DNA of 64,000 nt from Flavobacteriales bacterium. Lineage in GTDB: Bacteria; Bacteroidota; Bacteroidia; Flavobacteriales_D; Sanyastnellaceae. The translations under genes were made by a program, and so were the position numbers. The stretch spans positions 1 through 64,000 of the forward strand of contig JAKVAX010000003.1 in NCBI GenBank assembly GCA_022447625.1, read 5' to 3'. The notes beneath the pieces are model-generated. The model was given only the letters and a program-made list of their open reading frames with translations. It was not told the origin of the DNA and searched no databases. This document shows, in pieces, positions 9,099 to 10,786 of this stretch (position 1 is its first letter; the number at the start of each line of letters is the position of its first letter).

Positions 9099-9256
9099 TC
9101 GAGTGACGAGAGTCTAGGGAATCTATAATCTAGAAACGATAATCTATAACTAGCAAGACGAGAGTCTAGGGGCGAGCGTATTTAAACTCGTATTGATTTT
9201 TTCCACGAACCACGAACCACGAACCACGAACCACGAACCACGAACCGGCAACTCCT
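9099..9256. repeat. Heptad-period intergenic repeat locus 4 with six CCACGAA copies
   Basis: Six perfect tandem copies of CCACGAA occupy 9203-9244. Before them, around 9119-9150, AATCTAT, AATCTAG, AAACGAT, AATCTAT also run in 7s, and AGTCTAGG occurs twice (near 9110 and 9164). CCACGAA is the reverse complement of the TTCGTGG heptad at 19217-19279 and near 13655-13670. The spacer lies between the convergent ends of tolC and the 163-residue gene. Confidence 0.85.
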
Positions 9257-9748
9257 TTAGTTCAAAGTACTCCGTTCTACTACGTTTCCGCTTGGACGGA
9301 GATCTATGAATTTATTGGTGTAGGAATCAAAGATATACCCCTGGATATTGAGGTTGACTTGATGTTCAGAGCGGATGATTGCGTTGAGTGTTTCCAGTTG
9401 TTTACGGAGATACAATCCCACTAAGGAGTGGGAAAGGTCATTTGCTAGGCAAATGACCTTTCCCTTTCCTCGTGTTTTTCTGTTTTGATCTGACTTAGAC
9501 TGCAGGTCCATTGGATTGACGGTTCCGATTTCAAACATCTCGGCCACGATGTAATTCGTGGTTGAGAGCACACAATTCACCGTCTCAATGTCTTTCGCTA
9601 TAATGAAATCAACGATGTCAATCATTGCCTTTTGATCAAACACAAGTGCATTACCTAGAGAGGAAAGAAAGTAATTTTTAGCGCTTGACTGATTATGTAT
9701 GGCCATCTCCAAACCATCAGTAGGGCAGATGAAAAACAGATTTTTCAT
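9257..9748 (-). CDS. Putative beta-carbonic-anhydrase-like protein without canonical zinc ligands
   Basis: A 163-residue cytosolic protein I cannot assign with certainty. Its order of elements resembles a beta-carbonic anhydrase: LFFICPTD at the N-terminus where the family has CxDSR; SSLGNALVFDQKAMIDIVDFII like the RNAGG/SL helix; then a helix LYLRKQLETLNAII and the ending LNIQGYIFDSYTNKFIDL, which matches the family pattern (R-Q-E-L, then G-x-x-YD-x-x-tGk-x-x-x-L). The usual HxxC ligand pair is missing: the matching place reads STTNYIV. It starts 29 bases after the theta-type enzyme gene and is probably co-transcribed. Alternative: an unrelated alpha/beta protein. Confidence 0.5.
   Translation of the reverse strand: MKNLFFICPTDGLEMAIHNQSSAKNYFLSSLGNALVFDQKAMIDIVDFIIAKDIETVNCVLSTTNYIVAEMFEIGTVNPMDLQSKSDQNRKTRGKGKVICLANDLSHSLVGLYLRKQLETLNAIIRSEHQVNLNIQGYIFDSYTNKFIDLRPSGNVVERSTLN
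9430..9464. repeat. Perfect 16-bp inverted repeat inside a gene
   Basis: 9430-9445 and 9449-9464 are exact reverse complements (GGGAAAGGTCATTTGC) around a 3-base TAG loop. It lies within the 163-residue gene and encodes KVICLANDLS plus flanking residues. A stem this long and perfect is unusual in coding DNA and looks like an in-frame hairpin insertion. Confidence 0.85.
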
Positions 9749-9777
9749 AGTGAAAGAGTCAGTTCAATCCAGAGGTT

Positions 9778-10491
9778 TTAAAGATTTTTTAAGTCAATCA
9801 CTTCGAAGTTTCGGGCATCGAAATAATCATCGACACCGTAGTCAGTATTGATGATGATTCCTCCGAGCAGCGTGACCGTATCTACATGAAATTCGTTCTT
9901 ACATGTTTGAATGTGTTCGTGAATCTTCTTGTCAATGATGTCATAACAGGCTTCGGTGATCGCCTTTGATTTATTGTCGCTTGATAGAATTTGCTCTTTG
10001 TAAGGGAGCAAGCTCTCTTCAAGTTTCATTTGCTGGTAGTCATCATCATTCATGACTGGAGCGTAAGAGTCATCATGGAAGCGGCTTAGCGCAAGCATAA
10101 GTGCACCACAAGAATTCCCGGTCTCCTCTTGACGAGGACGGTACATCTTTCCTAGGTCGCCATCCAATGTAATCCCGATGTGCGGACCGTAGAAAATAAA
10201 CGCGCTTCCTTCATCTGGGATGTGGTGAGCAAAAGCAGTCATACCCGTTTGTCCAGCAAAAGGTAGACCTCCCAATCCTCCCATAATGAATGGGCCGAAC
10301 AGTACATTGAAGAATGTTGTAGAAGGGACGTTAATATCATCGGAACACACAGACGTTGCCATGAGAACTTTCGAGATATCAATTTTATGTTCCAACTGCA
10401 TCTTACCTAAGTAATGGATGGAAGTGTCTTTTGCGTCTTTAGCGTTTGGGAAATATCCCTGTACGATTTTGTCAAATTTTCTTTGAAGCAT
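9778..10491 (-). CDS. Theta-type carbonic anhydrase, LCIB family
   Basis: A 237-residue protein matching the limiting-CO2-inducible protein B/C domain, which has a beta-carbonic-anhydrase-like fold and interconverts CO2 and bicarbonate. The signature parts are in order: SVCSDDIN (Cys49, Asp51), MGGLGGLPFAGQTGMTAFAHHIPD, YGPHIGI (His104), GDLGKMYRPRQ and NSCGALM (Cys128). Cys49/His104/Cys128 have the spacing of the family's zinc ligands. I do not see an arginine within about 12 residues after Cys49, where I would expect the partner of the catalytic Asp, so activity is not certain. The gene is followed 29 bases later by a beta-CA-like gene. Confidence 0.82.
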   Translation of the reverse strand: MLQRKFDKIVQGYFPNAKDAKDTSIHYLGKMQLEHKIDISKVLMATSVCSDDINVPSTTFFNVLFGPFIMGGLGGLPFAGQTGMTAFAHHIPDEGSAFIFYGPHIGITLDGDLGKMYRPRQEETGNSCGALMLALSRFHDDSYAPVMNDDDYQQMKLEESLLPYKEQILSSDNKSKAITEACYDIIDKKIHEHIQTCKNEFHVDTVTLLGGIIINTDYGVDDYFDARNFEVIDLKNL

Positions 10492-10786
10492 ATGATTCAG
10501 GTATTAGGGCTGAAGGGTGTGTATCAGCCAAAATCAATTGTTCCGAAAATAGGGAAAAGGAAGGTTAATGCAACATTGTTGCAGTAATATATCTCGTTCT
10601 CTCTTGCGAAAGAATCGATAAACAATAAACAATAATCGATAACTGGTTGGGCTAGAGGCGAGGGAATCGAGAAACAATAAACGATAATTGACAACTGGTT
10701 GGGCAAAAGACGAGAATCAAAAAAACGGATGCCGGAAGCCGGACGCCGGATTTAGGTCTAAAGCCTAACGCCTAGGTGCGTGGCTT
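10492..10786. repeat. Heptad-period intergenic repeat locus 5
   Basis: No gene is visible. From about 10613 the spacer reads in 7s: AATCGAT, AAACAAT, AAACAAT, AATCGAT, AACTGGT. A second, diverged copy follows near 10669-10704, also ending AACTGGTTGGGC. A GATGCCG/GAAGCCG/GACGCCG block lies near 10726-10750 and an AAGCCTAACGCCTA block near 10760-10774. The AATCGATAAACAA module reappears in reverse orientation at 19323-19352. Upstream of the theta-CA start (10492-10560) no clear -7 box was found. Confidence 0.75.

Follow-up and report, generated by a model that had tools for sequence, protein, structure and literature searches.

The window, a 64,000-nucleotide stretch of a Flavobacteriales bacterium contig, contains a carbonic anhydrase (CA) gene followed by a smaller gene, here called the partner, with a palindromic box upstream of both. 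An initial annotation had reported two open reading frames of 237 and 163 amino acids (aa), and both are present in the arrangement below.

9257..9748, strand (-): predicted pseudo-beta-CA partner, 163 aa (AlphaFold2 model, Foldseek, VIA-align Z 12.8, 42-member alignment)
9749..9777, strand (-): intergenic gap of 29 nt between CA and partner (from ORF coordinates)
9778..10491, strand (-): LCIB-type (theta) CA, 237 aa (PF18599, PDB 6kfs, PtLCIB4 alignment, invariant residues)
10569..10583, no strand assigned (.): palindromic operator-like box TGCAACATTGTTGCA, 78 nt 5' of the CA start codon

The CA and partner genes presumably form one transcript. Both are missing from two congeners and from the other family members sampled, and their GC content (CA 42.6%, partner 41.1%) is lower than that of the window (47.3%); the pair was likely acquired horizontally. 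Plasmid spread was looked for by tblastn with the partner and its distant relatives, with zero matches. The pair is flanked by short tandem repeats in the intergenic DNA, built of 7-bp units: CCACGAA x6.3 at 9203-9246, ATAAACA x2.6 at 10618-10635, and CGGAAGC x3.6 at 10726-10750.

The 237-aa protein is, by its sequence, an intact LCIB_C_CA (“theta” or LCIB-type) CA. In the profile search, PF18599 LCIB_C_CA matched at E=1e-50 and 172.6 bits (cut-off 25) over profile positions 20-223 of 223, a match over the domain. Its closest solved structures are 6kfs (2e-34), 9w05, 9vzj, and PtLCIB4. The LCIB signature had been read with Cys49, His104, and Cys128, and this reading is correct: these predicted zinc ligands are invariant in 14 LCIB-type CAs, as are Asp51, His90, and Arg118. 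In the PtLCIB4 alignment, the mutated Ser47 and His88 of that protein fall on Ser50 and His90 of the window CA. Since the zinc ligands and further active-site residues are kept, the window CA is expected to be competent; some LCIB homologs are inactive (PMC5876011). The 237-aa protein thus resembles the LCIB/LCIC family (PF18599; PtLCIB4) in profile, zinc, and catalytic residues, while the system differs in being bacterial and in having a second gene outside that family. Searches for beta-CA (PF00484) and alpha-CA (PF00194) gave no match in the genome to which the window belongs (G000, 99.8% complete), and the LCIB-type CA may therefore be the main or sole CA of the species, as far as these two classes go.

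The 163-aa partner has zero sequence matches in Pfam, NCBIfam, and PDB. At E<0.1, none of 42 partner family members has Pro_CA among its listed families, and profile-profile comparison of the partner with beta-CA was insignificant. Bac_RepA_C and other weak Pfam matches are scattered over the members and were set aside as chance. Homology to beta-CA at the level of sequence was dropped because none of these searches supported it, and for the same reason the beta-CA assignment rests on predicted structure. The AlphaFold2 model of the window partner, built from the 42-member alignment, has a pLDDT of 70.7. Of the 60 PDB matches that Foldseek found for it at E<=0.001, 50 were listed, every one a beta-CA with probability 1.00; VIA-align gave Z 12.8 for CafD (136 residues, 3.4 A) and Z 12.4 for E. 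coli Can (143 residues, 3.4 A). A second member, L028, yielded a better model (pLDDT 77.2), whose listed Foldseek matches are likewise all beta-CAs at probability 1.00 and whose VIA scores are Z 14.8 for E. coli Can (158 residues, 3.3 A) and Z 10.2 for PtLCIB4 (5b5y_A).

The likeness to beta-CA proposed in the initial annotation is thus upheld by the predicted models (Z 12.8 for the window partner, 14.8 for the second member), and the listed matches point to beta-CA throughout, none of them to an unrelated fold; the Pro_CA profile suggested as a check gave no listed match. The partner is predicted to represent an unnamed family with a beta-CA fold. Compared with known beta-CAs (PF00484 Pro_CA; E. 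coli Can, H. influenzae CA), it shares the predicted fold over nearly the full length and retains the first zinc Cys, but it has no profile match and about 11-13% identity; its His and second Cys are changed to Ser and Asn, and the Asp/Arg dyad is replaced (Thr/Gly).

The residue correspondence is deduced from where the model alignment starts and from motif order. Residue 1 of the window model aligns with Can residue 35, which would place Cys8 on Can Cys42, the first zinc ligand; Thr10/Asp44, Gly12/Arg46, Ser62/His98, and Asn65/Cys101 are placed by motif order. Against C42/H98/C101/D44/R46 of Can, the window partner would accordingly read Cys8 (kept), Ser62, Asn65, Thr10, and Gly12. The CxDxR and HxxC motifs of beta-CA are not present; CPTDxL and SxxN are found instead, and Cys8 is invariant in the family. 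The earlier description of the partner as lacking zinc ligands consequently stands for the HxxC pair, which reads SxxN, and fails for the complete set, Cys8 having been kept.

Conservation of the pairing was surveyed with a partner-only motif pattern scanned over 84,980 species genomes, which gave 47 loci, all in Bacteroidota. A CA gene adjoins the partner in 47/47 of them, 11 of LCIB type and 36 of iota type, so the gene pairing is conserved in relatives. Iota-CAs are a metal-free class with an unrelated, NTF2-like fold. In four relatives of the same order the partner lies beside an unrelated 153-residue protein, which is an iota-CA. These iota-CA neighbors match NF047901 at 1e-28 to 1e-30, below its curated equivalog cut-off of 350 bits, and the PDB entries 7c5x (1e-78) and 7c5v (1e-27); the HHSS motif is present in those printed, except L055. 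Iota-CA of the COG4337 type (7c5v, 7c5x), unrelated in fold, thus occupies the LCIB slot before the partner in 36 loci. In about 20 of the iota loci, the last base of the CA stop codon is also the first base of the partner gene. L055 (343-1349) is the only locus with the partner before the CA, and its CA is a divergent iota type (~44% identity, HGSH not HHSS).

The two CA classes occur in the same gene order. A Fur-family gene pointing away from MerC, FolE, CA, partner, PhoX, and COG0523 genes, these six running in one direction, is found in L022 and L024, where the CA is LCIB-type, and in L037 and L046, where it is an iota-CA. On the partner tree there are about eight changes of CA type, at least three of them forced by well-supported branches. 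LCIB-type CA and iota-CA are interchangeable in one operon slot, which makes this a case of a single slot refilled by unrelated CA classes. Since the partner has been retained through repeated switches of CA type on its tree, it is unlikely to be dedicated to the surface of a single CA.

These results bear directly on the proposal of the initial annotation that the partner could join the LCIB-type CA in a mixed complex, with a structural or regulatory role, loosely like LCIB with LCIC. In 11 loci and in the window, the partner adjoins an LCIB-type CA in the same direction; this conserved pairing would fit such a complex, as would the beta-CA-like fold of LCIB-type CAs, seen in the PtLCIB4 score of the L028 model. 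The partner family, however, stands beside iota-CA three times as often as beside LCIB-type CA, and it has been kept through the changes of CA type. LCIB and LCIC are homologs of each other; the partner, unlike LCIC, has no PF18599 match, and two homologous subunits are not found here. The CA is also much more conserved than the partner (85% versus 35% identity in L049), unlike a tight heteromer. Among 395 genomes of the phylum, LCIB-type CA occurs in 35 and iota-CA in 21, and the partner accompanies the CA in only 2/35 and 2/21 of these, respectively, one copy being decayed; 33/35 Bacteroidota genomes with an LCIB-type CA thus have no partner match. An LCIB/LCIC-like complex is for these reasons not the best explanation, and we consider it unlikely.

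The altered pocket of the partner is its best-conserved part. Three beta-CA active-site loops, 27 of the 163 residues, hold 14 of the 25 best-conserved partner columns, an enrichment with a hypergeometric P of 6e-7 that is flattered by the loops having been chosen with the motifs in view. The window partner is the most diverged on the partner tree (branch of 4.15 changes per site), and it keeps 15/16 conserved pocket columns versus 10/24 elsewhere (Fisher P 9e-4). Across thirteen close pairs, partner dN/dS is 0.07-0.30, bar one pair with almost no differences; in the same pairs the dN/dS of the CA is below that of the partner in all except the near-identical pair. The best reading of these sequence comparisons is that the altered pocket is still under selection. 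The partner is broken by stops, frameshifts, or deletion beside an intact CA in L019, L046, L059, L065, and L067. Given such decay or interruption in several relatives, the partner is useful yet dispensable in places, unless some of the broken copies are assembly errors.

A conserved pocket raises the question of whether the partner is itself a CA that uses no zinc, or a different metal, in a C-T-S-N pocket, so that each cassette would encode two CAs. Its invariant polar pocket residues (Cys8, Asn25, Tyr26, Ser30, Asn33, and Asn65) and its constant presence in a CA operon agree with this, and iota-CAs provide a precedent that metal-free CA chemistry exists (PMC8132391). Such an enzyme would be redundant with the neighboring CA, and the residues of beta-CA chemistry are replaced apart from one Cys; this possibility is accordingly rated as improbable.

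The shared fold also suggests that the partner could act on an ordinary zinc beta-CA, for instance by stabilizing, inhibiting, or stripping the apo-enzyme in zinc starvation. A beta-CA is found in 39/41 genomes of one Flavobacteriaceae-type family, including the pair-bearing G428, and the genome of the window, which has none, carries the most diverged partner, a pattern that loss of the client would produce. Yet the frame and pocket of the window partner are intact although no beta-CA was found there, and it is the pocket columns that are conserved, whereas columns outside the pocket are poorly so. The probability of this association appears low.

The regulatory context, absent from the initial annotation, says most about function. 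The cassette has the palindrome TGCAACNNNGTTGCA in common with genes for MerC, a ZigA-like COG0523 GTPase, and a regulator of the Fur family. In the window it has one match, at 10569-10583, with 0 expected. The 3.9-Mb genome contains only 2 exact boxes, the other lying between a divergent Fur-family gene and MerC, and a one-mismatch box lies directly 5' of its COG0523 GTPase gene (555 bits to ZigA). The Fur/MerC and COG0523 genes are on contigs other than that of the CA gene, which counts against the cassette model given below. Across the survey, a box with at most one mismatch is present in 44/47 loci, with 77 sites versus 0 for an inverted control pattern; in the window genome, the same tolerance gives six sites versus 8 for a reversed control pattern. 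Three of the six (on C13, at C23:178126, and on C76) do not adjoin any cassette gene and were taken as chance. A search of the 149 nt 5' of the window CA for the Bacteroidota -7 element TAnnTTTG gave no match. Paired boxes 38 bp apart lie 5' of many cassette operons (L021, L022, L026, L028, L031, L037, L051, and others), suggesting two repressor dimers per promoter.

The neighbors in the 47 loci include a short Fur-family regulator (22), MerC (24), FolE (GTP cyclohydrolase I; 19), the phosphatase PhoX (13), and the ZigA-like COG0523 GTPase (26). The Fur-family protein bears only a weak resemblance to Fur, Zur, and PadR-like structures, a point against the zinc reading. Both marks of a Zur regulon, a Fur-family regulator gene and a common operator at its targets, can be read from the DNA. 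Because the CA, Fur-family/MerC, and COG0523 genes have the box in common, membership of the window pair in the regulon of a Fur-family regulator is well supported on sequence grounds, though the genes are scattered. Zinc would be the sensed signal by analogy: ZigA-like COG0523, FolE, and PhoX are neighbors, and published Zur regulons include zinc-independent paralogs. Close to the LCIB-type loci L039, L042, L049, L050, and L052 there is a conserved trio of genes (M19 dipeptidase, DUF6702, and HupE/UreJ-like), with a copy of the palindrome 5' of the M19 gene in L039 and L049; this trio may belong to the regulon.

Comparable systems have been described outside this group. In proteobacteria, Zur regulates paralogs without zinc ligands, and Zur-linked CAs are known (PMC2770081). 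The present loci resemble the Zur-regulated COG0523 clusters (Haas et al. 2009, PMC2770081) in the Fur-family regulator, palindromic box, COG0523 GTPase, FolE, alternative CA, and paralog without zinc ligands; they differ in belonging to Bacteroidota, in having their own box, in using an LCIB-type or iota-CA instead of a gamma-CA, and in coupling a pseudo-beta-CA to the CA gene. Bacillus likewise has a Zur-linked CA, YtiB of B. subtilis, similar by its description as a CA gene under Zur control; no pairing with another CA is described there (PMC6103462). No description of the cassette or of a Bacteroidota Zur box was found in the literature (open-licence PMC papers).

An operon rich in zinc-related genes, often with COG0523 adjacent, could also mean that the partner handles metal, as a zinc scavenger or chaperone, or is a remnant that travels with the operon, and that it takes no part in CO2 chemistry. 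The invariant Cys8 would suit a metal-binding role, but one conserved Cys and zero conserved His make a poor metal site. The partner is linked to a CA gene in every locus, even where the other genes are missing, and it is under purifying selection. Metal handling is therefore hardly probable as its function.

We regard it as probable that the two genes form a CA cassette for zinc starvation, in which the partner serves as a pseudo-beta-CA accessory that would bind a ligand at its former active site. The CA and partner would form one operon of a metal-starvation regulon, most likely for zinc (Zur-type). When zinc is scarce, a Fur-family repressor would leave the TGCAAC-NNN-GTTGCA box and the operon would be expressed. 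The first gene would provide the CO2/bicarbonate interconversion that an ordinary zinc CA might then fail to secure, as an LCIB-type CA in the window lineage and as a metal-free iota-CA in most relatives. The second would supply a beta-CA-fold protein whose metal site has changed from C-H-C to C-S-N and whose Asp/Arg dyad has become Thr/Gly. Because the surroundings of the former active site are the best-conserved part of the protein, the accessory most likely binds a small ligand there, with bicarbonate or CO2 as obvious candidates. This hypothesis on its ligand and action fits both the conservation pattern and the indifference to CA class: the accessory would aid CO2/bicarbonate handling under zinc starvation whichever CA is present, and would not be the dedicated subunit of one CA. 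LCIB-type CAs are zinc enzymes with their own zinc site, and this counts against the cassette model, as replacing one zinc enzyme by another saves nothing unless the LCIB-type enzyme uses another metal or holds zinc more tightly. A further, more doubtful suggestion is that the family as a whole, having exchanged its zinc site for a conserved metal-free ligand pocket, helps zinc-starvation CAs of either class in a general way or senses CO2/bicarbonate for them.

The proposed zinc-starvation cassette suggests a route by which marine bacteria keep CO2 chemistry going under zinc scarcity, and offers a physiological context, open to testing, for metal-free iota-CAs and for LCIB-type CAs of bacteria. 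It also brings to light an uncharacterized family of pseudo-enzymes in which the altered active site has stayed conserved. Direct tests are within reach because several of the carriers have been cultured, among them Zobellia uliginosa DSM 2061 with an LCIB-type CA and Tenacibaculum holothuriorum with an iota-CA.

More distant relatives of the partner occur in other surroundings. One (L018:1179-3243) adjoins an SbtA-type bicarbonate transporter and a small CutA1/PII-like gene, and another (L020:452-1039) adjoins a LysR regulator; both have DxxC at the position of the beta-CA HxxC. As a side reading, this type may represent another branch of the pseudo-beta-CA family, one linked to bicarbonate.
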